Shown: positions 1 through 14,979 of the stretch, piece by piece | Position numbering within the stretch: position 1 is the first letter of the stretch | Layout: each line of letters opens with the position of its first letter | Source of the DNA: a virus | IMG/VR virus record: IMGVR_UViG_3300036771_000166 | Location: 1 to 43,786 of that record | Direction: 5' to 3' (one strand) | Length of the DNA stretch: 43,786 bases | Notes under the pieces: model-generated | What the model was told of the DNA's origin: nothing | Database searches by the model: none | What the model saw: the letters and a program-made list of their open reading frames with translations, nothing else | Translations under genes and position numbers: made by a program

Positions 1-354
1 GTGACTCTCGAAACTACCCCGGCACCCGCACAGGCGGCGGACGAACTGACCACCCTGCGCGCCGACGTGGCGGCGCTGGAGTTCATCTTTGACGAACTCG
101 CCCGCGCCATGGACCCGGCCGCGCTGCTCAAGGTGCTGACCTACCTCATCCGCAACGCCAAGCGCGCTGCCTCGGAGACCCAGAGCTACGACACCCTGGA
201 GCACCGCCGCCTGGTCGCCCAGGTGGAATCGCTGATGGCCCGGGTCGAGCCGCAGGCCAAGAAGCAGGCAATGACGGTGCGCAACGAGCACAACCGCCTG
301 AAGAAGGAAAAGGCCCGCCACAAGGCCGACAGCCGCCGCCAGCTGCAGAAGTAA
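1..354 (+). CDS. Conserved hypothetical protein upstream of ssrA
   Basis: 117 residues from a GTG at the first base of the window; the true start could lie further upstream. The protein looks soluble and mostly helical. It has an Ala-rich N-terminus, a middle helical section (about residues 30-90) and a strongly basic, Lys/Arg-rich tail (about 95-117) that might touch nucleic acid. I see no catalytic motif and do not recognise the family. The gene is host DNA outside the prophage, 106 bp before the tmRNA and on the same strand. Confidence 0.6.
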   Translation: MTLETTPAPAQAADELTTLRADVAALEFIFDELARAMDPAALLKVLTYLIRNAKRAASETQSYDTLEHRRLVAQVESLMARVEPQAKKQAMTVRNEHNRLKKEKARHKADSRRQLQK

Positions 355-460
355 GTCCTTGGCGGGCAAGGTGACTGTTCAGCTGGATTGGAGTAGCATC
401 CATTCCGTCAAGTAGACGTCCGGCGCTGTTTCCGGATGAAGTGCGGTTCTTGAAGAAACC

Positions 461-863
461 GGGGGTGCATTGGTTTCGACGGGGGTTGTGAAGTTACTTG
501 GTGCATGCCGAGGGGGCAGCTTTCCTCGTTAATCCAGCAGCAAACTTTTAGTTGCCAACGACGACAACTACGGTTCGAACGACTTCGCAATCGCTGCCTA
601 AAAACAGCTTTAGCGTTTAGTTCTACAGCCGCCTTAGGCGAACCCCCGAACCTACTTGTGCCCGTGCTCGTAGATGTAGGGTCATTATCACGGAACCGGT
701 TGTGATGGCTGCCTGTCAGTCACGACTTAACTAAAGCAGGCTGGTCCTGGGGTGCGCTTTGCACACCGTGCTGCCACAGGATGAGATTCAACGGTGAGCT
801 AAGCATGTAGTACCGGGGATGGAGTGCCTTCGGACGGCGGTTCAATTCCGCCCACCTCCACCA
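461..863 (+). ncRNA. ssrA: tmRNA (transfer-messenger RNA)
   Basis: The tmRNA rescues stalled ribosomes and tags their nascent chains for proteolysis. The 5' GGGGGTG (461-467) pairs over 7 bp, with one G-U, with CACCTCC (853-859), followed by discriminator A and encoded CCA (861-863). A T-arm (GGTTCAATTCC) lies just before the acceptor strand. The tag reading frame resumes at GCC 554 and ends at TAA 599-601, giving ANDDNYGSNDFAIAA, whose -AIAA end suits ClpXP-type proteases. At 403 nt it is somewhat longer than the E. coli molecule. Its last 14 bases are part of the prophage attachment core, so integration restored an intact 3' end. Confidence 0.95.
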
Positions 864-865
864 TT
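850..865 (+). repeat. attL core (direct repeat copy 1)
   Basis: GCCCACCTCCACCATT covers the last 14 bases of the tmRNA gene plus TT. The identical 16-mer recurs at 40591-40606, and the flanks differ outside the core. This is the expected product of site-specific integration into the 3' end of ssrA. Confidence 0.9.
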
Positions 866-888
866 GAAGGGTTCGAACGAATCCTAAG

Positions 889-931
889 AAGCCCGGGAAC
901 CCTTACACAACAAGGGTTCCCGGGCTTTTTT
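889..931 (+). terminator. Rho-independent terminator after ssrA
   Basis: A perfect 14-bp stem (891-904 with 912-925) with a 7-nt loop is followed by TTTTTT. It lies just inside the prophage, so the phage supplies the terminator that now ends tmRNA transcription. A comparable hairpin sits just after attR (40633-40665). Confidence 0.92.
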
Positions 932-976
932 ATTTCCGGCATCGTCCGTCCCGGTGCGTTGCAGGTCGTGAGACCG

Positions 977-1027
977 TGGGGGCATATTCTGGGGCATCTA
1001 CCCCATGCCCCCAGCCAGATGCCCCCA
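977..1027. promoter_or_regulatory. Candidate integrase arm-type sites at attL
   Basis: Four copies of a TGGGGGCATC-like word occur here. Two are direct (about 977-985 and 990-998) and two inverted (about 1004-1013 and 1018-1027), the last overlapping the integrase start codon. The same word is found twice beside attR. Clustered repeats at both ends of an integrated element are the usual look of arm-binding sites; this is inferred from position and repetition. Confidence 0.5.
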
Positions 1028-2218
1028 CTTACCGATCTTGCCTTACGGCGCGCCAAGCCGACCGAGAAGACCCAGAAGCTGTTCGACGGCGGCGGTCTAT
1101 ACTTGGAGATCTCTCCTAAGGATGGCCGGTGGTGGCGCCTCAAGTACAGATTCGACGGAAAAGAGAAGCGCCTCGCCTTGGGCGTATACCCGGACGTGCC
1201 CCTCGCCCTTGCCCGGCAGCGGCGCGAGGACGCGCGCCAGATGCTCGCTCGGGGCATCGATCCAGGCGAATACCGCAAGGCAGTCGCCCAAGCGAAAGCC
1301 GAACTTGGGGCCAACACCTTCGAAGTGACAGCGCGCGAGTGGCTTGGTAAGCGAGATTGGGTGCCGAAGTACTCGGTGAAGGTCGTGGCGTGGATGGAGA
1401 ACGACGTATTTCCCTGGATCGGATCCAGACCGGTAGCCGAGCTGACCGCCCCCGACTTCCTGCGGGTTGCGCGACGCATCGAAGCCCGGGGCGCCATCGA
1501 GTCTGCCCACCGGATCATGCAGAACTGCGGCCAGATCATGCGGTATGCGATCGCCACCGGACGCGCCGAGCGAAATCCAGTCGCCGACCTACGAGGAGCC
1601 CTGCCCCCCGCCCCTGAGCGCAATCATGCGGCCGTGGTCGACCCGATTGAGCTGGGGGACCTGCTGCGTGCCCTACATTCTTACCGAGGAACGGTCATCG
1701 TCCAGACGGCGCTGAAGCTGGCGCCCATGCTCTTTGTCAGGCCCGGGGAGCTCAGGCAGGCAGAGTGGACCGAGATCGATCTCGACGCAGCCGTCTGGAG
1801 CATTCCAGCGTCGCGAATGAAAATGCGGCAGGCGCATCTCGTCCCACTGTCCCTCCAATCCGTTCAGTTGTTGCGGGAACTGCACCCCCTCACCGGACGG
1901 GGCCAGTACGTGTTCCCTGGCGGACGGAGCGTAAGACGCCCCATGTCAGAGGGCGCCGTGCTGGCAGCGCTTAGGGTGCTGGGGTTCGACAAGGACAAGG
2001 CCACTGGCCATGGCTTCCGAGCGACCGCGCGCACGTTGCTAGACGAGGTGCTGGGCTATCGGCCAGACATCATCGAACACCAGCTGGCGCACGCCGTACG
2101 CGACCCCAACGGCAGGGCCTACAACCGTACAACCCATATGGTAGAGCGCGTACGGATGATGCAGGAGTGGGCTGATTATCTAGAGCAGCTGCGTTGTACC
2201 ATCGTTGCACAGCGCTGA
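1019..2218 (+). CDS. int: Tyrosine recombinase (integrase), P4-like
   Basis: 399 residues. It catalyses attP x attB recombination at ssrA. The N-terminal arm-binding domain opens with MPPLTDLALRRAKPTEK and DGGGLYLEI, typical of the DUF4102 domain. A core-binding domain covers about 100-200, and the catalytic domain holds R241, K268, H331-x2-R334, H357 and nucleophile Y368. I chose the ATG at 1019 because residues align with the usual P4-integrase start; the frame stays open upstream through the terminator, which is not coding. It lies 154 bp from attL. Its transcription may be self-controlled because a candidate arm site covers the start. Confidence 0.95.
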   Translation: MPPLTDLALRRAKPTEKTQKLFDGGGLYLEISPKDGRWWRLKYRFDGKEKRLALGVYPDVPLALARQRREDARQMLARGIDPGEYRKAVAQAKAELGANTFEVTAREWLGKRDWVPKYSVKVVAWMENDVFPWIGSRPVAELTAPDFLRVARRIEARGAIESAHRIMQNCGQIMRYAIATGRAERNPVADLRGALPPAPERNHAAVVDPIELGDLLRALHSYRGTVIVQTALKLAPMLFVRPGELRQAEWTEIDLDAAVWSIPASRMKMRQAHLVPLSLQSVQLLRELHPLTGRGQYVFPGGRSVRRPMSEGAVLAALRVLGFDKDKATGHGFRATARTLLDEVLGYRPDIIEHQLAHAVRDPNGRAYNRTTHMVERVRMMQEWADYLEQLRCTIVAQR

Positions 2219-2243
2219 CTAACCGTGTTCAAATCGCGAAAAT

Positions 2244-3134
2244 ATGGACGGACCGACCGCAATGGCCAGCTTCACCAATGAAGATCTGTTTAATCTGGAT
2301 CGGGAATTTGCGGAGCAGAACATTCCTCTCCACGCGCGGCCATTCCAGGCCGCAGTGCGCATCTTAGGGTCTAGCTTCTCGATTGGCCCCTTCCACACCG
2401 GGGATGGGGTGGAAGAAATTACCGCGGCCTATCGTGCGCTCTTTCCAGGGGACGACTTCTGGCCTGGCGCAGGCTGCGGCCTGGCCGCGTCTGTTGATCG
2501 GGTTCGACTTATTACGCTGCCTGTGGTTTTCGGAGAAAGTAATGTCGGCCTGCATTCCGGATTGGGGTTTGCCGACGCATCGGAGTGGCGAGCCTGGTGC
2601 CGCAACGATCCGGAAATTGCCTTGAAATCAGCGTACGCGTTCGCCGACTTGTACGACCTCTGTTACGGCCTCGAAAGCGTTCCTCAGAACTCGGAGCAGG
2701 ACGTGTTGTTTCATCGCTCGATGCAACACTTAGGCGATCTTTCTGCAAGCCTGTCGAACTCTGGCGGAGCCTCCGACGCTGCTCTACAGTCTATTTTGCT
2801 CATAGCCGAACTGGCGTTGAAGGGGGCGCTTCTTCAGTTTGGAGTTACGATGAAAACTCTTAAATACAAGTTTGGGCACAAACTACCTGAGTTAGCCAAT
2901 GAGCTTGCTAAGTTGTGTCCGCATCATGAAGACGATGAGCTGCAACGCATTTGCGAAGGAATGCCCAACCTCGTCGCTAGCCGCTATGGCTCTTCAGGAT
3001 TGACCCGTAAGCAGATTGTTGAGCTTGCTGTAGGAAGCCAGTTCATTGCTGCTTCCGCGATGCGGCGTATCAGCGAGACCGATATGGCGTTGGAGGTGCG
3101 TAGGGACGGACCACGCCCGAGCTTTCGCATCTAG
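2244..3134 (+). CDS. Accessory protein with HEPN-like C-terminal region
   Basis: 296 residues; ATG 2262 is an alternative start. I do not recognise the family. The N-terminal two-thirds looks globular (Trp, Gly and aromatic rich). The last 110 residues are helical and resemble HEPN domains: IAELALKGALL (about 187-197), GHKLPELANEL (211-221) and a SRYGSSG turn (246-252). The R-x4-6-H ribonuclease motif is not visible, so it may be a non-catalytic HEPN or an unrelated helical bundle. Codon use is more AT-rich than in structural genes, and it sits in the integrase-side accessory slot where phage defence and conversion genes are common. It is 25 bp from the integrase stop. Confidence 0.6.
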   Translation: MDGPTAMASFTNEDLFNLDREFAEQNIPLHARPFQAAVRILGSSFSIGPFHTGDGVEEITAAYRALFPGDDFWPGAGCGLAASVDRVRLITLPVVFGESNVGLHSGLGFADASEWRAWCRNDPEIALKSAYAFADLYDLCYGLESVPQNSEQDVLFHRSMQHLGDLSASLSNSGGASDAALQSILLIAELALKGALLQFGVTMKTLKYKFGHKLPELANELAKLCPHHEDDELQRICEGMPNLVASRYGSSGLTRKQIVELAVGSQFIAASAMRRISETDMALEVRRDGPRPSFRI

Positions 3135-3185
3135 CATGCGAACCAATTGAAACTTCGATTCAACCCGTGGACAACGGAAAAGGAT

Positions 3186-3231
3186 ATTGAAAATCCCCGT
3201 GTCGGCGGTTCGATTCCGTCCCCGGCCACCA
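3186..3231 (+). pseudogene. 3' fragment of tRNA-Phe (attachment-site scar)
   Basis: This stretch reads like the 3' part of a tRNA-Phe gene: anticodon GAA (3189-3191) followed by AATCCCCGTGTC, a T-arm (GGCGGTTCGATTCCGTC), acceptor CCCGGCC and encoded ACCA ending at 3231. The 5' part is missing; upstream sequence does not form the D-arm or acceptor strand. A 3' tRNA fragment next to a terminator and short direct repeats is the usual look of a phage attP or attR for tRNA-Phe, but this one lies inside an ssrA-integrated prophage. Confidence 0.8.
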
Positions 3232-3237
3232 CTTTTT

Positions 3238-3268
3238 AAAGGCTCGCAGCGATGCGGGCCTTTTTCTT
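3238..3268 (+). terminator. Terminator after the tRNA-Phe fragment
   Basis: An 8-bp stem (3241-3248 with 3253-3260, one U-G) with a GCGA loop is followed by TTTTTCTTTTT. It would end transcription of an intact tRNA-Phe after integration there, which supports the attachment-site reading. Confidence 0.75.
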
Positions 3269-3276
3269 TTTGCCTG

Positions 3277-3296
3277 TTGCACGGAATTTGCACGGA
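3277..3296. repeat. Tandem TTGCACGGA repeat
   Basis: TTGCACGGA occurs at 3277-3285 and again at 3288-3296, 11 bp apart, about one helical turn. Placed 46 bp from the tRNA-Phe fragment, these may be arm-type sites of a lost tRNA-Phe integrase. Confidence 0.4.
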
Positions 3297-3308
3297 TTGC
3301 AGAAGGCG

Positions 3309-3521
3309 TCATGCGGCTTGCTCGTCATCGACCGGGAAAAGTCGCGCAGCGATGCCATCAAATTTCGCTGCCTCTGTTCGCAGACGATCAGCCCCGCGCC
3401 GGCGTGTCGCCCTCGCCCGCCAGTCGCCGCTGTGATTCCTGTCTAGGTCATCGGCCTGCTGCCATAGCGAAGCCGCCCTCGCGCGCGCCCAGCGCGCCTT
3501 GCCGATGCTCTTCTGATCCAT
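3309..3521 (-). CDS. Small basic helical protein, unknown
   Basis: 70 residues from ATG 3521; a longer frame to 3623 exists but its N-terminus looks random. The protein is rich in Arg and Ala with Trp in the first half (ARWARARAASLWQQADDLD) and ends in a helix before LFPVDDEQAA. It may be a short DNA-associated phage protein, but no family is recognised. No strong ribosome site is seen. It points towards the tRNA-Phe scar. Confidence 0.4.
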   Translation of the reverse strand: MDQKSIGKARWARARAASLWQQADDLDRNHSGDWRARATRRRGADRLRTEAAKFDGIAARLFPVDDEQAA

Positions 3522-3680
3522 GCAGCTACTGTCGCCGCCGGCGGTCGCACGCGCCGATACGGAGGCAACGCTGGCTAACCGACAAGCTTGATGTGTAGCA
3601 TCGCCTTCAACGGAGCAGCTCAAAGATCAAAAAAGCGCGCTCTGCTGAAACCACCTAAACTCAAGAGCCATTGGTTTCGA

Positions 3681-3911
3681 ATGAAACGAGAGTACTGCGC
3701 CGTGATTTCAGCCCGACGAGGCTGGATTGTTAAATGTCCATGGGAGGGGCGTTTTGAGCGTCTTTTCCCACATGCATTCGAGACACAGGATTCGGCGCTC
3801 CATTTTGCTAGAGCCATCGCCTCAGACCACTTCAGCCAGTCTGGAGTCCCAACGGGGATCGAATGGCAAGATGAGATTGGCCGGCTGCGTCTTGAGAAGA
3901 TTTGCGGGTAG
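3681..3911 (+). CDS. Small hypothetical protein
   Basis: 76 residues from ATG 3681. An upstream in-frame ATG at 3591 would add 30 basic residues. The sequence (MKREYCAVISARRGWIVKCPWEG, then FETQDSALHFARAIASDH) has the strand-turn-strand-helix look of small DUF2188-like proteins, but this is only resemblance. No good Shine-Dalgarno precedes either start. It stands alone between minus-strand genes in the accessory patchwork. Confidence 0.4.
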   Translation: MKREYCAVISARRGWIVKCPWEGRFERLFPHAFETQDSALHFARAIASDHFSQSGVPTGIEWQDEIGRLRLEKICG

Positions 3912-4039
3912 TCCCAAGCTTCCGTCATCGCTTCCCGAGCCGTCGAAAATGATGCTTCGGCGACCAAGCGCAGGATACGGACCTGGGTCTCAGATTCCGC
4001 GACGGCACGTCAGCGCCATGCAAAGGCGCTGGCAACCCT

Positions 4040-4654
4040 TCAGACGGCGCCAAGATCCCGCACGATCGCCTCACCCCGCTGCAGGAAGGCGGCGATGATT
4101 CGCCCGCCGGCTACGTGCCGCCCCTCTTCAGCATTCACGTACTCGGCTTGCCGGCGCCCAGCGGCCAAGATCGCGTCGGGATGGAAGCTATCGGGGAGAT
4201 CCCGCAGCGGCTGACCTGGCGCAGCAATCCCGCCCACCAGCGCAGCGACACGTGCGTGATGGTCGACATCTGACTTCGCGTACGCGCTGCCGACAACCCG
4301 ACCTTGGGCCTTGGACCAACCGACCACCACGATTTCCGCCTGCAGCTGATCGAGATCCATCTCGGCGTCTAGGGCTGCCTGGACGTAGTTGGGCCACAGC
4401 TGATCCATAACCGGCCCGACCTCCCGCATGATCTGTTCAATGCTGAAGGCGTGCCGGAAGCTGGCCTCAAGACACAGCTGATAGATGCGAAGGAAGAACT
4501 GCGCGGATCCGCGACCGGCCACCACGATGTTGTGTTGAGGGATCAGCAGCAGCTTGGCACCCTCTGAGACCTCGCCGCTGACAGCATCCCGAGCAAGGGT
4601 GTCAACCGCAACGAATGCTCGATCTGGCGTCATCAGCACATTCAGGATGCTCAT
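4040..4654 (-). CDS. Proteasome-like Ntn-hydrolase candidate
   Basis: 204 residues from ATG 4654, preceded by AGGCGAG. After Met removal the chain begins with Ser. Counting it as residue 1, Asp falls at 17 (in FVAVDTLA) and Lys at 33 (in EGAKLLLI), followed by NIVVAGRGS. This matches the T1/D17/K33 layout and the VIAG(F/R)-G strand of HslV and proteasome beta subunits, with Ser in place of Thr. The later part is helical then strand rich (EIVVVGWSKAQGRVVGSAY), also consistent. It may be a self-activating amidase or peptidase; substrate unknown. It lies beyond the tail genes in the same orientation, separated from them by a plus-strand gene. Length and fold are inferred from motifs only. Confidence 0.6.
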   Translation of the reverse strand: MSILNVLMTPDRAFVAVDTLARDAVSGEVSEGAKLLLIPQHNIVVAGRGSAQFFLRIYQLCLEASFRHAFSIEQIMREVGPVMDQLWPNYVQAALDAEMDLDQLQAEIVVVGWSKAQGRVVGSAYAKSDVDHHARVAALVGGIAAPGQPLRDLPDSFHPDAILAAGRRQAEYVNAEEGRHVAGGRIIAAFLQRGEAIVRDLGAV

Positions 4655-4869
4655 CGGCTCGCCTATCTGGCCAAGCCGAACTATCGTTGGGCCAGATGGC
4701 GTTGTCTAGGGCAGGCTGCGGCCCTGATCTGGGCGGAGTAGCACGTAGCCCGATTACACCAAGGCGAGCTCAAGGCTCCGTGGCCAGCAAAAATCTGCGC
4801 CCACTTAACAAACGGACGAATATTATTCTCTCTCGAGGCAATCCGGCCCGATTTCCGACGAGAAGACCC

Positions 4870-5157
4870 ATGCCAAACACCGGACAGTTCTATCTCGTTG
4901 ACGTCGCTGGCCAAGTAGACGAGGCTGGGCGGCTCCTTGAAGTAACGAGCGTTCAGTGCCGATGCCTGCCGTGCGGCTGGTCGTTTGATGCCTTGCCTGG
5001 CCGGGGCCTGATTGCCATTGCGGGAGGAGCCGTTCTCGCCTGCCCGCATTGTGAGAATCGTCAGGCCGTCAGCCTGGCTAGATTTTCTGAGTTCATTGAC
5101 CGCGTTGGCAGCGGGTCTCGCCCAGCACCCACGGATGCCGATCACCTGAGCCACTAG
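4870..5157 (+). CDS. Small zinc-ribbon protein
   Basis: 95 residues from ATG 4870 (GAGAAG 6 bp upstream). Two Cys pairs, CRCLPCGW (about 35-41) and CPHC (about 62-65), separated by a hydrophobic strand segment, form a plausible four-Cys zinc ribbon. Such small ribbons occur in phage regulators and host-takeover factors, but no specific family is recognised. The remainder is acidic and soluble. The 215 bp upstream holds no clear gene. Confidence 0.55.
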   Translation: MPNTGQFYLVDVAGQVDEAGRLLEVTSVQCRCLPCGWSFDALPGRGLIAIAGGAVLACPHCENRQAVSLARFSEFIDRVGSGSRPAPTDADHLSH

Positions 5158-5280
5158 CGGGCCGAAACGGTGGCAATGCTGCTGGCCAGCGAGCCGCCGG
5201 CGATGGAGGCCTATCGCGTGAGCCGCGGGGTGAACACCCCGCGGAACAACCAGCCCGCGCTGCTCGACCAGGTGGCGTGA
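5158..5280 (+). pseudogene. C-terminal remnant of SOS-associated (YedK/SRAP) peptidase
   Basis: From 5161 a reading frame of 39 codons encodes LLASEPPAMEAYRVSRGVN then TPRNNQPALLDQVA and stops at 5278-5280. The motif YRVSR-VN-x-RN is the conserved C-terminus of SRAP/HMCES proteins, which shield abasic sites in single-stranded DNA. The preceding codon in frame is TAG and no N-terminal domain precedes it, so this is a truncated scar that marks a recombination joint between the accessory patchwork and the tail operon. Confidence 0.6.
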
Positions 5281-5478
5281 TCAGGCGGCGCTCTCGTCCT
5301 GATCTTCCTCCGCGGTGAACTTGTAGCTGCGCCCGGTAACCAACCCTGCAGCCGCCGCCGGTGCCACGGTCAGGGTGAGCTGGGGCACCCCGGCCTCGAT
5401 CGGGACGAAGTTCAGCGTCACGACACCAGGCTGATCGGCCATTTCCATTTTCATCTGCAGCTTTGCGCGAAATTGCAT
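5281..5478 (-). CDS. Small protein at the end of the tail operon
   Basis: 65 residues from ATG 5478, chosen because GGAGAG lies 7 bp upstream; a TTG at 5535 would extend it but lacks a site. It follows the fibre gene by 53 bp and is the last gene of the late operon. The sequence is beta rich (VVTLNFVPIEAGVPQLTLTV) with an acidic tail, resembling small tail-associated proteins found after tip or fibre genes. Function unknown. Confidence 0.6.
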   Translation of the reverse strand: MQFRAKLQMKMEMADQPGVVTLNFVPIEAGVPQLTLTVAPAAAAGLVTGRSYKFTAEEDQDESAA

Positions 5479-5531
5479 ATATCTCTCCAGGTTGTGCGGT
5501 GGCATGGATACGCTGGCCACCGCTTCAGCGG

Positions 5532-8500
5532 TCAATCTTCAATCGACACGATCGATAGGCTCTGCGACGTGGTTGACGCGTCCCAGTTACCAGAATCGTG
5601 GCTGTAGCTCTGACTTGAAAACGCGACGACCTCAGCGCGATAGGTTCTCTGTGCCGTGCCGTCGGCGCTGTCGTTCAACGTCAGCGACCCGGACCATCGG
5701 GAGATCAGCACGTCTGGCGAATCAGGCTCGTTGCGGATGTCAAGATTTCCCCCGGCCTGGACCTGGCCCCAAAGCACCTCACCAGCCGCCCCGATGCGAC
5801 GATAGACATTGACCGTCGCCGAGTTCGCACCCCCGCCCGGCCGGAATCCATCGGGGCCGAGTGCGTTCTTCGTAGCTCGTACCGTTCGGCTGTAGCTGAT
5901 CACCACCTGCTTGTTCCGCCCATTGGTATCGAACGGGCCGACAGTGACGAAGTTTCCGATGGTGACAATGCTGGTCGATTGCGCGGCGTTGCGCCTGATG
6001 CCCGCGGCCAGCGCACCACCCCAGTAGGCGTTGCCGTTCACGTCCATCCAGACCGTGGCGTTGGCCTTGCTGGCCGCCGCAGCACCAACGTTCGGCCCGA
6101 AGTAGTCGATCAGCCCCTCGCCACTGTTCCCGAACCCGTTGCCGATGATCCGCTGGGAATTACCCTTCCAGACGCGGATGTAGCCGTCCCGCATCTCGAT
6201 GCCATCCGGCTGGTTCGGGCTCAGGATCTGGAACACGTTGGCCAGGATCTTCATATCGACGATCCTGCCGTCGTTCTTCATGACCATCCCCCCAGTCAAT
6301 CCGTCGGCAGTCACATACATGCTGTAGCCGGCAAAGGACTCGCTACCGCCCGCACTCCATGGGGACGGGCCGACTTGCTCGGGACGCATTTCCTCGAGCA
6401 TAGGCTGGGCGCCCCACAGATATGGAGTGGTGTGCTGAGGGCCTGTGGCTTGTGCTCGCCACCCCATGCACGCCTTCACTGCCCCGGCTGGCGCAGTGGC
6501 CACTACAAAGCCACGGGGTAGGCTTGCCAGGGTTGCGGTGGTGGAGTCCTGCCGTGGCACAACGGCTCCGGCGTGTTCGCTGATCATCTGATTGTTGGCG
6601 TTGTAGAACGTCAGCATCGCAACGGCTTCGCACCGGAAGGGGTTGAGCCATACCGAGGAGCAATAGCGTTTTCCCGGAGCAACCGGGACGGCCACGCGGT
6701 TCCTGATCACGCCGTACCTCGTCTGCCCAGCAGGTGGACTTCCGGCGTTCAGAGAACGAAAGCCCAAGGCGTTCATCCCTGGCGGCCAATACTGGTTGTC
6801 ACCAAGAAGGTTGACCGTAGGGTTCTCCCAAAATCCAGAGTCATTCCACGCCCAGACCCAGTCACTCGCCCCGTCCTTGAACATAGTGTTCGGGATGAGG
6901 TTGCCGCCGCCGGCCATGCTGCCCTTCACTGTCGCCGTGAGTGTCTGCACAGTGCTGGCGTCGGCCTTCTCTCCCACGCTGGCGCCCACCTGGTTGACCT
7001 GCTGCCCGAGCGCAGTGATCTGACCGCCCTGCTGGGTGACGGTAGTCGTCAGCGCGGACAACCCCGTCGCGGCCGCATCGGCCGTCGTCTTGGCGCCATA
7101 CGCATCGGTAACGTCCTGCCAGATGACGTTGTCCACCAGAATACCGACGTTCTGCACGGTCAACCCACCAGCAGGCTGTGTGCCGGGAATCGACAGCCAC
7201 AACTGACCGGTACGGGTGTTGGGCGTAGTCACGGTCACATAGGCCGATATGCGCGTCCACTGACTTAGCGAATCCAGACGACGATTCTCAACACCGGCAT
7301 GCCACGAGCGCGCGCCACTGCTATTCAAAACACTGACGCCGAACCTAAACACCGCATCCCCCGGAGCGACGCCGGAGAAGAAGGTATTGTTTCGGACAAC
7401 TGCTTCAATGTAGTACGTGCGACCCGTTACGGTGGAAATACTGGGTCCGAAGTAAATGTCAGTGTTCCCAGCAGCAGGAGTGATTGTTCGCCGCAGCAGG
7501 CCAACGCGGCTGCCCTCAAAGGTGGAGCTACCGGCATTGCCGGCCTTCGCTCGAAACTCCCCGTTTCCACCAACGGCAGAAATGATCTGCTCTGATGCGT
7601 AGCCCTCGAAGCCTGCGTCGATCATGATGTTCGGGCCGGCCTGCTGAGTGGCCGCGAGCTGTGCGTTCACCGAGGTGATCGCTTGGCCCTGAGCGGTGAT
7701 GGTGCCCTCCAGCACGGTCACTTTTCCGGTAAGCGTGCTTGTAGCGTCCGCATTTGCCGCGGTCGCGCTGGCGATCTCCTCGATCGACGGTACGTAGCCC
7801 GTGGCAATCTCGCCGACTTGTACTTGGATGTTGTCCCATTCGACCCATTGGTCAGGGGAGTTTGCCCCGTAAATTCGGATGTAGACATTGCAGGTCGACG
7901 CGGTCGCGGGCGCGGTGCCAGTCCAGGTATGACGTGCCCAGTCCGCAGTCGTAACTCTGTCGGCTGATGCCGGTGTTCCGGTGTAGCCGATGATTGCCCC
8001 AGCAGCATCCCGCCACTGAAATTGCAAGAAGACCCGCACACCGGGGGTTCCACGCACATACGCGGACATCGTGTGCTTCTTTGCTGGGTCGACCTTCATG
8101 GATTTCAGCGTGCTGAGGCTGTAAAACTCGTAGTAGCCGCCTGGCGAAGCGAGGTTGGCAATTTCCCAACGTGCGGCTTTGGCGCTGCCCGGCAAGGCAG
8201 AATCCACGTACGAACGCGAGATCGTCGCGCCTGCAGTACTGCCGCTGGCGGCATACCAACCCAATCCATTTTGTTCGAAGCCACTGTTCGCCAGAAGGTT
8301 GTCGCCACCGATGTTCTGCAGGCTCGCGGTCACGTTGGTCAGTGCGGTGCCTTGGCTCGTGACCGTACTGCCGAGCTGTGTGACCTTGCTGTCCAGCGAG
8401 GTCAGCGCCGCGTTGCTGGCCTTGCCGGCCACGTCCGCCTGAACCTGCGTCAGCGCACTTCCCTGTGCGACCAGCGTGCCCTCGATGACACCGGTCCGCG

Positions 8501-10490
8501 TAGTGATGGACTGAAGGCCGGCGGCGGTGAGCTGATTGGCCGCCTGGTCCGTGACGTCGTAAAGCTCCACCCTGTCGAAGGAAACGGTGCCGATGCTGGG
8601 ATGCACGTACACGCGGAACAAGGCCCGGACGGACCCCGCGGGCAGCGCGCCGTAGTCAACTGTGAAGTCCGTCCACTCTGCGGTAGCGGTGATTGTCCGA
8701 TCAGCCTGAAACTGGGTGTTCTCAGCGTTGCGATAGACGACGCGCAGCAGCACGTTGCCGTTTCCCGACAGCAGCTTCACTCGCACGCGGGCTCGGAAGA
8801 TCGTCCCCGCCCGTACTGGGAAGAAAGCACCGTCGTTGGCGTCCATAAAGGGCGCTATGGCTGCCGTCGCGCGCGTGATGGTGACACCAGGTCCGCCATC
8901 GCCGCTGGCTGCATCGCGCAGGATGGTGTTGCCACCACTGTTGCCGCCCAGCACCCACCAAAGGAAATTCTCGGCAAAGTTGCTGTTGGGGAGCAGGTTA
9001 TCCCCGACCGTGCGCAACCCCGTCAGCTTGCTGTTCACCGCTGTCGTCGCCTGGGCGTTGGCTTGATCCGCCGCGACCATTGCGTCCTGCAGCGTCGTCA
9101 CCGATGCGCTGGTGGCGAGACCGCCGTTGCCGGCGGGCATGCGGGCTTCAATGGTCGTGATGCGCTGCACCTGCGAGCTGTCGGCCGCCGCGCGGGCGGT
9201 GCGCTCATCGCCCATCAACCCCTGCGCTTGGCTGAGGTCGGTGCCCGTGTAGTTGCCGCGCATCTGCACGGCCAGGGTGTTCCGCTGGGTAGCTTCAGAC
9301 GCGAGCGCGGTCACGCGGGCCTGCGTCTCTTCCTGCACCAGTGCCACGCTGGCGGCCGGCATCGGCCGGCCAATGGCCAGCCAGTCGATCAGGTAGTAGT
9401 CGGATACGCCCTGCGCGGCGCCCAGCTGCAGTCGGACGGCGGCGATGGTGCTGGGGCGCCACGCAATGTCGGCCACGTCCAAGATGGCCACGCCGGAGCC
9501 GTCCCATGCCGGCTCCGCAATCGTCACCCGCTTGGTCGTGTTCCAGGTGGCGTCCGTCGTGGTGGTCCACTGCAAGGCGCCGGCCCAGGTCGGGTTGCCC
9601 ACCTTCTTGATCCGCATCTTCACGAAGCGGTAGCCGCTGCCGTCGATACCCAGGCCGCCGGGCGACTGCACGTAGGGATTGGCCGCGGCATTGGCCGGCC
9701 GCAGCCAGCCGTCCACCAGCGCGGGCGCGCCGTTGCCGGTCCAGCTTTCCACCGTCAGGTTGAAGTCCCAGATCCGCTTGCTGTCGAACTGCGTTCCACT
9801 GCCGGCGGCGACCTCCGACAGCGCGCGTGACAGGGAGTCGAAGCCGTTCTGCTGCGTCTCGCTGACCGCGGTGATAGCAGCCTCGCGCTCCAGCTTCTCG
9901 TTCAGCAGGTCGGTGGCGCGGGTCTGCCCCTCGGCCGCGATCGCGTCCATGGCCTGGCCGATCTGGGTCACGCGGGTCTGCGCCTCCAGCACCAGGCTGG
10001 CGTTGACCGAGCCGATATCGCGCGCACGGGCGGCCGCCTCGTTGGCGTCAGCCAGCGCGCGGTCCACGATCTCTTTGTCCAGCTTCTGCTGGGCGGTAAC
10101 CAGCTGGGCCGTGGTCGGCGCCGGCGTGGCCTCAACCACCGTGCCCTGCCCCGGCTTGCCGCGCACCGAAGCGGTGATGCGGAAATACCATTTCTGCCCG
10201 CTGCCATCGCTGTAGAGGTAGCGGGTTTCGGTGGTGCGATGGATCTCCGTCCACGGGCCGTTCTGGCTGGGCCCACGCTCGATGATGTAGACGACCCCGG
10301 CCTGGTCGACGGCGTCCCACTCGATCAGCACGCCATCGGCCACCGGCTCAGGCGTCACGCCGTCCACCGGCGGCGTCTCGGGGGAGACGTACACCGTGGG
10401 GAACCAGGACGAGTTCTGGGCCGTCACCGGGGTGACAGACGGCAACGCGCCCGCCCCGATATCAATCAGGGTGATTTTCCGTTCTTGCAT
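5532..10490 (-). CDS. Tail tip / fibre protein with FN3 and repeated jelly-roll-like modules
   Basis: 1652 residues; the probable receptor-binding protein at the tail tip. Residues about 42-122 form a fibronectin III-like domain (ADGVLIEWDAVDQAG). Alternating Ala/Gln/Thr-rich coiled-coil linkers and lectin-like modules follow. Four modules open with a related signature: GDNLLPNSNF (497), GDNLLANSGF (729), GPNIMIDAGF (952), GGNLIPNTMF (1196). A related one lies at about 235-375. The stretch about 1388-1490 resembles DUF1983 of lambda J-type tip proteins, and the last 160 residues form a beta-rich end. The start overlaps nothing and is 5 bp from the tape-measure stop. No chaperone gene follows. 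Confidence 0.85.
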   Translation of the reverse strand: MQERKITLIDIGAGALPSVTPVTAQNSSWFPTVYVSPETPPVDGVTPEPVADGVLIEWDAVDQAGVVYIIERGPSQNGPWTEIHRTTETRYLYSDGSGQKWYFRITASVRGKPGQGTVVEATPAPTTAQLVTAQQKLDKEIVDRALADANEAAARARDIGSVNASLVLEAQTRVTQIGQAMDAIAAEGQTRATDLLNEKLEREAAITAVSETQQNGFDSLSRALSEVAAGSGTQFDSKRIWDFNLTVESWTGNGAPALVDGWLRPANAAANPYVQSPGGLGIDGSGYRFVKMRIKKVGNPTWAGALQWTTTTDATWNTTKRVTIAEPAWDGSGVAILDVADIAWRPSTIAAVRLQLGAAQGVSDYYLIDWLAIGRPMPAASVALVQEETQARVTALASEATQRNTLAVQMRGNYTGTDLSQAQGLMGDERTARAAADSSQVQRITTIEARMPAGNGGLATSASVTTLQDAMVAADQANAQATTAVNSKLTGLRTVGDNLLPNSNFAENFLWWVLGGNSGGNTILRDAASGDGGPGVTITRATAAIAPFMDANDGAFFPVRAGTIFRARVRVKLLSGNGNVLLRVVYRNAENTQFQADRTITATAEWTDFTVDYGALPAGSVRALFRVYVHPSIGTVSFDRVELYDVTDQAANQLTAAGLQSITTRTGVIEGTLVAQGSALTQVQADVAGKASNAALTSLDSKVTQLGSTVTSQGTALTNVTASLQNIGGDNLLANSGFEQNGLGWYAASGSTAGATISRSYVDSALPGSAKAARWEIANLASPGGYYEFYSLSTLKSMKVDPAKKHTMSAYVRGTPGVRVFLQFQWRDAAGAIIGYTGTPASADRVTTADWARHTWTGTAPATASTCNVYIRIYGANSPDQWVEWDNIQVQVGEIATGYVPSIEEIASATAANADATSTLTGKVTVLEGTITAQGQAITSVNAQLAATQQAGPNIMIDAGFEGYASEQIISAVGGNGEFRAKAGNAGSSTFEGSRVGLLRRTITPAAGNTDIYFGPSISTVTGRTYYIEAVVRNNTFFSGVAPGDAVFRFGVSVLNSSGARSWHAGVENRRLDSLSQWTRISAYVTVTTPNTRTGQLWLSIPGTQPAGGLTVQNVGILVDNVIWQDVTDAYGAKTTADAAATGLSALTTTVTQQGGQITALGQQVNQVGASVGEKADASTVQTLTATVKGSMAGGGNLIPNTMFKDGASDWVWAWNDSGFWENPTVNLLGDNQYWPPGMNALGFRSLNAGSPPAGQTRYGVIRNRVAVPVAPGKRYCSSVWLNPFRCEAVAMLTFYNANNQMISEHAGAVVPRQDSTTATLASLPRGFVVATAPAGAVKACMGWRAQATGPQHTTPYLWGAQPMLEEMRPEQVGPSPWSAGGSESFAGYSMYVTADGLTGGMVMKNDGRIVDMKILANVFQILSPNQPDGIEMRDGYIRVWKGNSQRIIGNGFGNSGEGLIDYFGPNVGAAAASKANATVWMDVNGNAYWGGALAAGIRRNAAQSTSIVTIGNFVTVGPFDTNGRNKQVVISYSRTVRATKNALGPDGFRPGGGANSATVNVYRRIGAAGEVLWGQVQAGGNLDIRNEPDSPDVLISRWSGSLTLNDSADGTAQRTYRAEVVAFSSQSYSHDSGNWDASTTSQSLSIVSIED

Positions 10491-10494
10491 GGGG

Positions 10495-13400
10495 TTACCT
10501 GTTGAGGGTTTCGCGGATAGCGGAGCTGTTGCTCGTGCGTACGCCCGACGTGGTCACGCGCAGTAGCTCGCGGAGCACCTGGTTCTGTTCGGCCAGCAGG
10601 GTGTTGCCCTGCTGCACGGCCGCCGTCGTCTCGGCCTGGCCCTTCCCATCGACCACCAGGTCGAACACCGCCCGGCTGAAGTTGTCCGGCAGCGCCTCGA
10701 TCACGTCAGCCAGCTTGCCCATGCTGGTGCCATCCTCGAGGTCGAGGTTGCCCACCTTCATGCTGTCGATCAGGCCGGTGACCTGCCCGTAGAGGCTGTT
10801 GTAGTCCTGGCCACTGGCGTAGAGGTTCCGACCGAAGCCCAGAGCGGCCTGTGCGGCCGCCTGCGCCGCGCTGCTGTCGCCGCCGGACACGGCGCGCTCC
10901 AGCTCGCGCATCGTCTCCTGCAGCTTCTCCTGATCGGTCAGCGGCGACAGGTCGCTGATCGACAGCCCGTACTTCATCGCCTTCTTGTCAGCGTCGATCT
11001 GGGCTTGGAGCTTGCCCATGTTGGTCGCCCGCAGCGCTTCGATCTTGGCCAGGTCTTCCGCCCGGGCGCCGGACAAGCCGAGCGCCTTGGCGTAGTCGTT
11101 GGCCGCCTTCACCTGCTGGCGGTACGTGCGCTCGATCGTGAGCGCCTGCGACTGGTACTGCGTCAGGTTGCCCGTAAGCAGCTGGGTCGAAACGTCGGCC
11201 ATCAGTGCGCCATAGTCCCGCGCTGCACCGGTGAGCCGGGCATAGGCCTCGTTCATGGTCTCGCCGGCTCGCGCCAGATCGCCCATGCGCTCCACCACCT
11301 TGGTGATCGTCCCGCTGCCACTGCTGTTCCATAGCTGCGTGGCATTGGCGATATCGGCCTGGATGGCCAGCGTAAGGCCGGCCACTTCGTTGAGCTTCGA
11401 AGCGTCGGCCCGGTACTTCTGGGCAATGCGCTCGATCTCGTCCGCCGCGCCGTAGGCCTTGGCCACCCCCAACATGTTCTCGCCCGCCAAGCGCTGGGCG
11501 AAGGCCTCTTCCGCCTCGTAGTAGACGCGACCGGCGATCTGGCCAAACTGCTTGGTCAGATTCCCACTCTTGTCGAACTCCTGGCGGAAGCTGCCGGCGA
11601 TCATCGGCGGAACCTTGATGCCCAGCGCCGCGGCGCCCTGGCCCATGGCCTTCTCGATCTGATCGAACAGATCGCGCACCGACTGCAGTGCAGCGTCATC
11701 CATGGACGTGCTGTTGGTGCGGCTCTTGGAGCCACGGAACAGGCTGCGCTTCTTCGACTGGCTGGTCTCGTTGACGCCCGACACGCCACCATCGCCGATG
11801 CTGAACTGGCTGGCGCCGCCCGTCGTCTTCCAGCTGGTGCCGAACAGGCCGCCCCCGGTGACCTTGTCCAGGGCAAAGGCACCCAAGCCGATCCAGCCGG
11901 CCGGCCCGATGCTCTTGAGCCCGCCGGTCAGCGCGCCCATCAGCCCTGAGCCGCCCTTGTAAGCGGCCATGCCGGCGGAGATGGCGCCGCTTACGGCATT
12001 CCCGGCAAAGCCGCCGGCCAGCGTGGAAAGGCCCTTGGTGAACAGGCCGTCGCCGCCTTGCATCCCCATCATGCCGCCGGCAAGCGCGCCACCCCAGTTG
12101 ATGCCCGCCAGCGAGGACGCCTTGCCGCCAGGGCCGGCGAAGGCTGGCATGTTATTGCCGAACCCCATCATCGACGCCGGGTCCGTGCGGGTGCCTGTGG
12201 CGATGCGCGGCTGGAAGCCTGCAGCGGCCTGGCCCTTGGACACCAGCGCGGCCACGCTGGCCAGATTCAGGCCGCCGGCGGCGGTGCCATTGCCGGACAG
12301 AATGCTGTAACCGACCCGATCAAGGATGCTCGCTTGGATTGGCAGCACCAGCTTCTGCTGCAGCAGCTGGCGGGCAAGGTCGCGCAGGCCCTGCTTGGCT
12401 ACGTCCTTCATGTCGCCCCACAGGCTGCGCCAATCGCGCATCCCGCCGGCAACGAAGTCCGCCATGGCATCGGCGGCATCGCCGACACCGTAGATCACCA
12501 CGTTGGCCCACGCCTCGACATTGGCCGCGGCCTCTTCCATCTGCAGCGACAGCGCAGCGGAAGCATCAGCCGCGGCCAGCATCGACCGCTCGTATTCTTC
12601 ATAGCTCGCCGCGCCCTTCGCCAGCGCCAGCGCTTCCTTGCCACCGGCGGCCTCCACCGCCTTCTGCAGCTCCTGGCGCATGTCACGCTCGTTGAGCAGC
12701 TGCCGGCGGTAGAGCTCCCGCGCACGGCCGATCTTGCCCAGCATGGCCAGCTCGCCGTCCATGGTCGCCAGCAAGGCCTCCGGGCTGGTCATGGCCCGAT
12801 CAACCTCCGCCGCCACCTTGGCGTATTCCATTGCGCTTTGGGCCATCAGCACGTTGGCATCGGCCTGGGCGATATTGCCCTTGGCCAGCGCGGCGTTGTA
12901 CTCGGCCATGTTCTGCAGGTGCTTGGCCATCGCCTCGTCGAGCGGGCCGTTCATCGCCGCTGCGGCCAGTTCCGCCTGCTGCCGGTAGCGCTCAAGCGCC
13001 TCGGTCGCCGCCTTGTGCTCTTTGATCGCCGCCTTGTCGCCGGCCTTCGAGGCCTGAGCAGCCTTCTGCGCCACCTCCGTCTGGCGGATCAAATTCAAGC
13101 CCAGCGCGATCTGCTTGTTGTACTCAGCGCGCTGTTCCGCGCTCAGCTTGTCCGCGCCGCCGGCGGCGTTGATCTTCTGGCCAACGTCGACCATGAAGGC
13201 CGCCTCGGCGCCTTGCTTCAGGCGCACCAGGTTGACGAGCTGGCCATCGATGCTGGACTGCAGGGACTTCAGGTGCTGGTCGATCCCATCAGAAGCGGCC
13301 TTGGACGCCACTGCCTGGCGATTCAACGCTGCGGTGGTTGCGTCGGTTTGCTTCTCGGCCTCACCGCTAACACCTGTGAGAGCTTCCATCAACCCGCGCT

Positions 13401-14940
13401 GCCTCTCAAGCTCCCGGCTGCTGGTTGCAGCGGCTGCAGTCTGCTGAGTAAGCGCCTTGGAGATTGCGGCGGCCGCTGGCGACCCATCAGCCATTACCTT
13501 CCAGGCGGCCTCAAGTCCTTCGGAGAACTCGTCCGCAGTGATCTTTCCGGCACGCAGCGAGACCTTCAGCCGGTCCGTCTCTTTGATGAATGCGTCCGCC
13601 TTAGAGACGTCAGCAAAGGCAGCTGCAGCCGAGGTCATCTGACCAATTGACGCCGCAACGTCCTTATACGACTCGCTGATGCGGGCATCGAGCTTCAACA
13701 GCTCACCGGCCTGCTCCTGCTTGTTCAACTCCCGATACTTTGTAATCGTTTCGTCGAGCGTGCCGTTGAAGTCAATCAGCGCGCTGTCCGCATCCTTGGT
13801 ACTGTCGCGAATCACCCACCATCCCGCTGCTGCCGTGGCAAGGGCGGCGGCGATCCCAACTGGACCTCCCAGAGCCGCGTAGGCAGATGCCAAGCCTTGT
13901 GCGGCGACGCGTGCGGCGGTTTGTGCTGCAGTAAGGCGCACGGTCGCCGGGACCATTCCCATCATGCCGACCGAAGCCCGATTAGCCACGACTGCATTGG
14001 TGGCCCAGAGCGTGTTTAGAGCTGCAATTCCCTTCGTCAGCTTTCCGCCGGCGTAGAACACGCCCAAGCCGACGCCGAGCGGAACGGCGGCCGCTGCCAC
14101 GACGTTGAGGTTCTGGGCAAACGAGTTGACCGCCGCCGTGGCCGCGGCGATGCCTCCGCTCTGCGCCTGGCTGCCGAGCAGATCGTTAAATGACTCTTTC
14201 AAGCCATTGAGGGCACCGCCCAGCGTCTCACGCGCAGCCTTGCCGGCGCCCGCGTAGGACTCTTCCATCACCCCCATTACGATGGCCTGAGCCTCGCCGA
14301 GTCGCCCAGCTGCCTCCAGTGACGCCAGCATGTCCTTCTGCTGGGCGGTGAACTTGAAGCCTTGCTTCGTCAGCGCTGAGACACCCTCTGCCGGGTACTC
14401 CAGTGCCTTGCCAATGGTCTCCGCAGACTGAGTGATGTTCTCACCCAATCGCACGGACTGATCAATCGCCAACTGCAGCGCGCGCGGGAAGTTCTCCCCC
14501 ACGATGCCGGTGTAAGACAGCAAGCGCGTCTGTGCATTTACAATCTCGCCCGACGAATGGACCGTCGCCTTCGCCATCTTGTCAGCCATGTCGATCAGCT
14601 GCTTGCTGTTGAAGCCGGCAGCCTGCCCGGTGGATTTCAGGGCCGCATTCAACTGGGCCAGCTCGTTCTGAGCGTTCACGGTTTCGGTGATGAACTTACC
14701 GAGAAGCGCGCCGCCGCCGATCGCGCCGAACCCCTTTGCCAGCGTGGCCATGCTTACTTCGATGCTGGTGACAGACAACTTGGCGTCGCGTGCAGCCTGG
14801 GCGAAGCTATCTGACATCTCGCGCTGCATCTGCCGCATGGCTCGAGCAGATCGATCCGACGCGCGCGCAGCTTTTCCCAGGTCACGCTCGAAACTGCCGG
14901 TTTCGGCGAGCAGGTCAACGGTAAGGGTGTAGAGAGCCAT
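10495..14940 (-). CDS. Tail tape measure protein
   Basis: 1481 residues from ATG 14940 (MALYTLTVDLLAETGSFERDL). It sets tail length and fills the tube; at about 1.5 angstrom per residue this predicts a tail near 220 nm. It has long Ala/Gln/Lys helices, a hydrophobic stretch at about 285-390 with likely membrane segments, and Gly/Met-rich segments at about 945-1090. An in-frame GTG 27 bases upstream lies inside a terminator hairpin, so I rejected it. GGACGG precedes the ATG. It comes after the hub-like genes and a moron, not directly after the chaperones as in lambda. Confidence 0.92.
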   Translation of the reverse strand: MALYTLTVDLLAETGSFERDLGKAARASDRSARAMRQMQREMSDSFAQAARDAKLSVTSIEVSMATLAKGFGAIGGGALLGKFITETVNAQNELAQLNAALKSTGQAAGFNSKQLIDMADKMAKATVHSSGEIVNAQTRLLSYTGIVGENFPRALQLAIDQSVRLGENITQSAETIGKALEYPAEGVSALTKQGFKFTAQQKDMLASLEAAGRLGEAQAIVMGVMEESYAGAGKAARETLGGALNGLKESFNDLLGSQAQSGGIAAATAAVNSFAQNLNVVAAAAVPLGVGLGVFYAGGKLTKGIAALNTLWATNAVVANRASVGMMGMVPATVRLTAAQTAARVAAQGLASAYAALGGPVGIAAALATAAAGWWVIRDSTKDADSALIDFNGTLDETITKYRELNKQEQAGELLKLDARISESYKDVAASIGQMTSAAAAFADVSKADAFIKETDRLKVSLRAGKITADEFSEGLEAAWKVMADGSPAAAAISKALTQQTAAAATSSRELERQRGLMEALTGVSGEAEKQTDATTAALNRQAVASKAASDGIDQHLKSLQSSIDGQLVNLVRLKQGAEAAFMVDVGQKINAAGGADKLSAEQRAEYNKQIALGLNLIRQTEVAQKAAQASKAGDKAAIKEHKAATEALERYRQQAELAAAAMNGPLDEAMAKHLQNMAEYNAALAKGNIAQADANVLMAQSAMEYAKVAAEVDRAMTSPEALLATMDGELAMLGKIGRARELYRRQLLNERDMRQELQKAVEAAGGKEALALAKGAASYEEYERSMLAAADASAALSLQMEEAAANVEAWANVVIYGVGDAADAMADFVAGGMRDWRSLWGDMKDVAKQGLRDLARQLLQQKLVLPIQASILDRVGYSILSGNGTAAGGLNLASVAALVSKGQAAAGFQPRIATGTRTDPASMMGFGNNMPAFAGPGGKASSLAGINWGGALAGGMMGMQGGDGLFTKGLSTLAGGFAGNAVSGAISAGMAAYKGGSGLMGALTGGLKSIGPAGWIGLGAFALDKVTGGGLFGTSWKTTGGASQFSIGDGGVSGVNETSQSKKRSLFRGSKSRTNSTSMDDAALQSVRDLFDQIEKAMGQGAAALGIKVPPMIAGSFRQEFDKSGNLTKQFGQIAGRVYYEAEEAFAQRLAGENMLGVAKAYGAADEIERIAQKYRADASKLNEVAGLTLAIQADIANATQLWNSSGSGTITKVVERMGDLARAGETMNEAYARLTGAARDYGALMADVSTQLLTGNLTQYQSQALTIERTYRQQVKAANDYAKALGLSGARAEDLAKIEALRATNMGKLQAQIDADKKAMKYGLSISDLSPLTDQEKLQETMRELERAVSGGDSSAAQAAAQAALGFGRNLYASGQDYNSLYGQVTGLIDSMKVGNLDLEDGTSMGKLADVIEALPDNFSRAVFDLVVDGKGQAETTAAVQQGNTLLAEQNQVLRELLRVTTSGVRTSNSSAIRETLNR

Positions 14941-14951
14941 GGTCCGTCCAT

Positions 14952-14979
14952 AAAAAAAGGCCCGCACATGGCGGGCCTT
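14952..14979 (-). terminator. Terminator between lipoprotein gene and tape measure
   Basis: On the minus strand a 9-bp stem (14971-14979 with 14957-14965) and 5-nt loop run into a T-tract that ends 12 bp before the tape-measure ATG. It would end transcripts of the lipoprotein gene, so late transcription must read through it. Confidence 0.85.

Follow-up and report, generated by a model that had tools for sequence, protein, structure and literature searches.

A putative serine-type proteasome-like Ntn hydrolase encoded by a temperate siphophage of Stenotrophomonas

The gene and its surroundings

The stretch of DNA analysed here (hereafter, the window) comprises positions 1 to 43,786 of the viral record IMGVR_UViG_3300036771_000166. 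It contains a temperate siphophage located beside a tmRNA gene, and the tmRNA site is probably the attachment site. A CII-like activator and a portal protein are also encoded elsewhere in the window. The features that surround the gene under study are as follows:

461–863, plus strand: tmRNA gene (ARAGORN)
824–2218, plus strand: integrase (phrog_1, E 8.9e-52); reading frame as listed, the true start may be further in
4040–4654, minus strand: coding sequence of the predicted Ntn hydrolase, 204 aa, ATG start, with evidence from selection and fold
4680–4708, minus strand: candidate sigma-70-like promoter immediately upstream of the Ntn gene, TAGACA-17-GATAGT (consensus match only, 9 of 12 positions; 0.3 expected per region)
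4798–4818, minus strand: terminator-like hairpin upstream of the Ntn gene, between it and the late operon (consensus match only)
4870–5157, plus strand: divergent gene for a 95-aa four-cysteine (zinc-ribbon-like) protein, with a weak DUF6510 match
5281–5535, minus strand: last gene of the tail operon, 84 aa (cluster c15)
5532–10490, minus strand: gene for a 1652-aa tail protein, upstream of the Ntn gene and on the same strand (phrog_2589, E 2.5e-99)
10495–14967, minus strand: tape measure gene (phrog_26084, E 2e-27)

The Ntn gene thus occupies the interval between the tail operon, on one side, and the integrase and the tmRNA site, on the other. The initial annotation had placed it next to the tail genes and outside the main operon, and this description is borne out: an opposite-strand gene and a hairpin intervene, and the gene has a promoter-like site of its own. 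Beside the integrase, a reading frame of 296 aa (2244–3134) shows a weak HEPN match (18.1 bits, for a cut-off of 22).

The 204-residue product of the frame 4654–4040 (minus strand) has the N-terminus MSILNVLMTPDRAFVAVDTLARDAVSGEVSEGAKLLLIPQHNIVVAGRGS, that is, MSILN. Comparison with its nearest relatives yields NG86 dN/dS values of 0.08–0.13, indicative of purifying selection, and the median across 101 pairs is 0.20. The frame is a genuine gene under purifying selection. A Shine-Dalgarno-like match, sought with a simple pattern, precedes the start in only 8 of 82 relatives, so that translation signals are weak evidence in either direction. The start codon lies immediately 5' of a Ser or Thr codon, and the sequence upstream is unrelated; hence, nothing points to a propeptide.

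Catalytic positions and predicted fold

Residues are numbered below with Ser as 1 after removal of Met, unless Met is stated to be counted. The initial annotation had noted that Ser1, Asp17 and Lys33 fall at the catalytic positions of HslV and of proteasome beta subunits. The codons of interest, all on the minus strand, are the following:

4649–4651, minus strand: AGC, predicted nucleophile Ser1 (Ser2 if Met is counted); Ser in 82 of 82 close relatives, Ser or Thr in divergent ones
4601–4603, minus strand: Asp17, invariant in close and divergent relatives
4553–4555, minus strand: Lys33, invariant in close and divergent relatives
4508–4513, minus strand: Arg47-Gly48, closing the strand that precedes helix 1; both residues invariant in the 82 close relatives

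Seven residues (S1, N4, D17, T18, K33, R47 and G48) never vary in the 82 full-length close relatives. Nine divergent relatives, with 22–31% identity to the window protein, retain D17, T18 and K33 and carry either S or T at position 1. Thr is found in two of them, L142 and L143, and the start codon of L142 is TTG. A Ser/Thr swap at this position is the exchange that would be expected for an N-terminal nucleophile. When 21 diverse members were aligned, the invariant columns (Met counted as 1) were M1, D18, T19, K34, G49, G112, S114, P146, Q169, G183 and G184, and Gly48 is therefore constant in this broader set too. The length of the loop between D17 and K33 varies among the divergent relatives, and L125 has roughly 18 or more residues inserted there; the window protein has no insertion there. 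Such variation indicates that the pairing of D and K is not an accident of spacing. The proposed catalytic residues are thus held in homologues down to 22% identity and across the loop insertion.

The possibility of chance was examined by scanning for the pattern [STC]1-D17-K33 in all ATG-started reading frames of at least 100 aa. One of 86 such frames in the window carries the pattern. Among 3,602 frames from all the loci fetched, only six carriers do not belong to the proteins that start with MSILN: three are members of the family (two of them identical in sequence), and the other three are HslV. Within the frames scanned, the pattern appears not to be due to chance and to be specific to family members and HslV.

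A further claim, that the segment VVAG-R-G resembles VIAGFAG of HslV, stands in part. The strand is present and R47-G48 is conserved, unlike the Gly of “AG”: residue 46 is T in 47, A in 18, G in 7, S in 5 and C in 5 of the 82 close relatives. In the region where the oxyanion-hole Gly47 would be expected, the family has a variable residue 46 followed by invariant Arg47 and Gly48. Arg47-Gly48 is a possible oxyanion-hole region, and a nearby backbone amide may serve as the oxyanion hole.

An AlphaFold2 model built from 42 relatives reached a pLDDT of 86.9 and a pTM of 0.84. Divergent viral relatives were sought with single proteins and with N-terminal DNA patterns, and none was found; as a consequence, the underlying alignment is confined to sequences with 52–87% identity. 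The model comprises strands at 3–8 and 12–18, short strands, strands at 35–38 and 43–48, helices at 51–65 (H1) and 72–96 (H2), strands at 106–114, 119–127 and 135–138, a helix at 159–177, and strands at 185–192 and 195–203. The order (strands, H1, H2, strands, helix 159–177, strands) is that of the sandwich. In a Foldseek search of the PDB, all of the best 50 matches were 20S proteasome subunits (E 5.2e-8 to 1e-6, probability 1.00, TM about 0.5–0.63, 9–17% identity). A beta-sheet core with flanking helices (H1–H4) is thus recovered by AlphaFold2 and Foldseek, except that a single helix (159–177) stands where proteasomes have the H3/H4 pair. In a viral structure library, five phage proteins match the model at E <1e-3, and these include uncharacterized proteins from Gordonia phage Nymphadora and Vibrio phage phi 3. 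An earlier model from 11 close relatives was poor (pLDDT 63); its PDB search was nevertheless headed by proteasome beta, Anbu and glycosylasparaginase, which are all Ntn hydrolases. Structure prediction and search, the check proposed in the initial annotation, therefore lead to a predicted proteasome sandwich. With a conserved triad set in such a model, a proteasome-like Ntn fold and active site can be predicted with high confidence.

Searches at the sequence level yielded little. No match to the window protein was obtained in Pfam or NCBIfam, and Pfam searches with the 21 diverse members detected no proteasome domain, the cut-off of PF00227 never being reached. Sequence searches of the PDB, either single or with a profile, gave no credible match. 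Scores of hhalign for the family against 34 HslV and 2 Anbu sequences fell below those of column-shuffled decoys; the alignment of the 21 diverse members with HslV does pair the equivalent residues (D18 with D17 and K34 with K33, Met counted in the family), which is suggestive, not significant. Fuchs et al. (2021) supported the members of the proteasome-like family by detectable profile similarity, which is not a strict definition (PMC8665760). Such similarity was not detected here, in comparisons with HslV and Anbu only, while the Ser1-Asp17-Lys33 triad that serves Fuchs et al. as another mark of the family is present. Lastly, tblastn with the window protein and five relatives found nothing credible in 50,697 phage genomes, and the phage records of that collection therefore show no sign of the family.

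Distribution, neighbourhood and possible function

Two scans of IMG/VR detected 93 relatives, of which 80 were kept, and one scan of GTDB genomes detected 18 loci, all in Stenotrophomonas. A profile of 42 relatives detected members in 18 of the 297 host-family genomes searched. Across 369 genomes of the class, clear matches were confined to two that had already been identified as carriers; since this class-wide sample gave no members outside Xanthomonadaceae genomes, a broad distribution is unsupported. The nine divergent members stem from the same bacterial family or order. The family is carried by prophages and similar elements in Stenotrophomonas and related bacteria; several copies may coexist in one genome (three in G234, two in G087 and two in G046). 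The initial annotation considered carriage by a phage unusual. It is less so than claimed: more than 90 relatives lie in viral contigs, and phage homologues of the proteasome have been published (PMC8665760).

Individual loci deserve mention. In contig IMGVR_UViG_3300011677_000011, two different copies of the gene (L033 and L045) flank integrase genes, as if two elements were in tandem. In genome G029, the gene is split after approximately codon 55 by an 8.3-kb insertion (L247:2036-11007). The reading frames of the insertion, named by reading their sequences, are like those of a Tn3-type mercury transposon (transposase, resolvase, mercury-reductase-like and MerR-like). In L028, L029 and L030, which belong to three species, the gene is truncated at the same point; the idea that a site-specific element caused this shared truncation was rejected, as the matching locus L247 bears the Tn3-like insertion.

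In 43 loci, the Ntn gene is preceded by a tail gene in the same orientation; an integrase lies on the opposite strand in 20. The gene content of the tail-to-Ntn interval varies among relatives, with many genes on the opposite strand. In 45 of 80 loci, the four-cysteine protein or a sister family (clusters c6 and c8) is encoded at 1.7 kb or less from the Ntn gene. Most of these genes are on the opposite strand, and their products are possible partners or regulators. Two other recurrent neighbours are an SRAP protein (YedK/HMCES-like, PF02586; cluster c5), present in 33/80 loci, and a BLUF blue-light sensor (PF04940; cluster c4), present in 28/80. Together with the four-cysteine proteins, they form a cargo set. 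As examples, the SRAP gene L036:4813-5478 lies between the tail gene and the Ntn gene on the opposite strand, and the BLUF gene L047:5161-5631 (E 1.9e-14) is in the same prophage cargo region as the Ntn gene. No PADLOC defence model matched the Ntn protein.

Around divergent relatives, other arrangements are seen. In L241 (5672-12010), the relative comes after portal and head genes and overlaps the start of the tape measure gene, all in one orientation. In L244 and L246, it follows the gene for the major head protein. The L246 element (175-9454) contains an integrase, the major head protein, an Ntn relative bearing a loop insertion, and a small terminase; it looks like a capsid-bearing satellite. 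These portal, tape-measure and head neighbours indicate that the family also resides on capsid-bearing integrated elements or their remnants. The stretches read around L239, L242, L243 and L245 contain no structural gene.

On balance, we lean towards the view that the gene encodes a serine-type proteasome-like Ntn hydrolase and is an accessory (moron) gene of a temperate Stenotrophomonas siphophage. The cargo reading derives from the tail gene upstream and the integrase opposite, the SRAP and BLUF neighbours, the own promoter-like site and hairpin, and the presence of several copies per genome. If the fold and active site are as modelled, the protein is likely to be an active hydrolase. The chances of an accessory role, either for the lysogen or against rivals, seem roughly even. 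A fuller proposal is offered tentatively, as a somewhat doubtful conjecture: an as yet unnamed serine-type proteasome-like family, carried as cargo by Xanthomonadaceae prophages and capsid-bearing integrated elements, might provide the lysogen with a propeptide-less protease against rival phages or with a modifier of the host. Counting against the explanation that we favour are the lack of a sequence-level link to proteasomes, the variable Gly of “AG”, the single helix in place of H3/H4 and the lack of a PADLOC match.

The enzyme would be an amide hydrolase, probably a protease, made without a propeptide. Met-Ser is a good substrate for methionine aminopeptidase, and trimming of the start Met by this enzyme would leave Ser1 free. 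According to established Ntn chemistry, from which these steps are drawn, Ser1 would act as the nucleophile, tuned by Lys33 and Asp17 and assisted by backbone amides near Arg47-Gly48, and would attack an amide bond; the acyl-enzyme would then be hydrolysed. Both catalysis and the protein nature of the substrate are what we infer. The enzyme would act in lysogens or during the early phase of infection, on proteins of the host or of rival phages and not in virion assembly.

Virion assembly is, nonetheless, the setting of the strongest rival explanation. An enzyme of virion morphogenesis, expressed late, would process a head or tail protein in the manner of prohead proteases. The Ntn gene is on the late-gene strand whenever a tail gene is seen (43/43), and the C-terminal part of the Firmicute proteasome-like group FC4 resembles phage tail proteins (PMC8665760). 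This rival has to be taken seriously, since some divergent members are found amid structural genes, between portal and tape measure in L241 and after the major head protein in L244 and L246. We nevertheless consider it unlikely, as in the window the Ntn gene is split from the late operon and has a promoter-like site, the intervening genes vary in the relatives, and other relatives have no structural gene in view.

Another alternative, to which we concede a small probability, is that the protein is a monomeric, substrate-specific amide enzyme instead of a degradative protease: either a protein ligase of the connectase type or a small-molecule amidase. The subunit is small and lacks a propeptide, no AAA+ partner was noted beside the gene, and connectase is an example of a specific ligase with a proteasome-like fold (PMC8665760). 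The insertion in the D17-K33 loop of L125 would also fit, but the window protein itself lacks it. A proteasome-like fold devoid of catalysis, in a binding or structural protein, would have a precedent in proteasome alpha subunits and would agree with the non-conserved oxyanion Gly; this is very improbable, given that Ser/Thr1, Asp17 and Lys33 persist across very divergent sequences with a Ser-Thr exchange at position 1.

The weakest rival, that the motif is coincidental in a protein that is not proteasome-like, leans on the match of the N-terminal 128 residues to PHROGs phrog_13702 (E 9.7e-9), labelled terminase large subunit, and on the lack of other profile matches; with a clear fold search, a specific motif and a sandwich of 204 aa that leaves no room for a terminase ATPase or nuclease, we reject the terminase identity and regard coincidence as extremely improbable, already refuted as far as prediction reaches. 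Because of the size and fold of the protein, the label is most likely wrong, an annotation error for a sister family.

Relationship to known proteasome-like systems

The family is abundant in Stenotrophomonas prophages, small and well predicted, and has been missed by Pfam and NCBIfam; its PHROGs match is only to the terminase-labelled profile. It offers a simple testable case, with one gene, one nucleophile and lysogens that carry one or several copies. Knowing its substrate would reveal if proteasome folds serve phages in editing proteins of the host or of rivals.

Like the beta subunits of the 20S proteasome, the Ntn protein has the predicted sandwich fold, the Ser/Thr1-Asp17-Lys33 positions and a Gly-Gly before the penultimate strand. 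Unlike them, the family mostly has Ser instead of Thr, has no propeptide, shares only about 9–17% identity, has one helix for the H3/H4 pair, escapes Pfam and is borne by prophages. HslV (ClpQ) has the same 1/17/33 spacing and the strand that follows, and is also carried by the hosts of the family. HslV functions as a double hexamer with the HslU ATPase; no HslU was noticed beside the Ntn gene in the parts read, and the protein is missed by PF00227 and has no significant profile match to HslV. Anbu, which was among the matches of the first model, also lacks a propeptide, starts with Met-Thr or Met-Ser and has a similar VAxDT strand. Again, profile matching is not significant, and the Ntn protein lacks the long C-terminal helix of Anbu.

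Further parallels are found among phages. The 22 new proteasome-like groups described by Fuchs et al. (2021) include PPH and AAH, which stand out for being carried by phages, and the phage groups of that survey have no known function (PMC8665760); BPH has been reported in Citromicrobium phage RXM (PMC8953757). PPH and AAH resemble our family in being proteasome-like and present in tailed phages and prophages. Identity with PPH, described as having about 140 residues and no helix H2 (PMC8665760), is excluded by the 204 aa and the long H2 (72–96) of the Ntn protein. GPH (WP_152342571.1) and DPH (WP_074989469.1), two proteobacterial homologues from the same survey (PMC8665760), are divergent like the Ntn family, which could be the same group as one or the other, the comparison being by description only. 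As phage proteasome-like proteins were already known (PMC8665760), we view the family as a new or unplaced addition to them.
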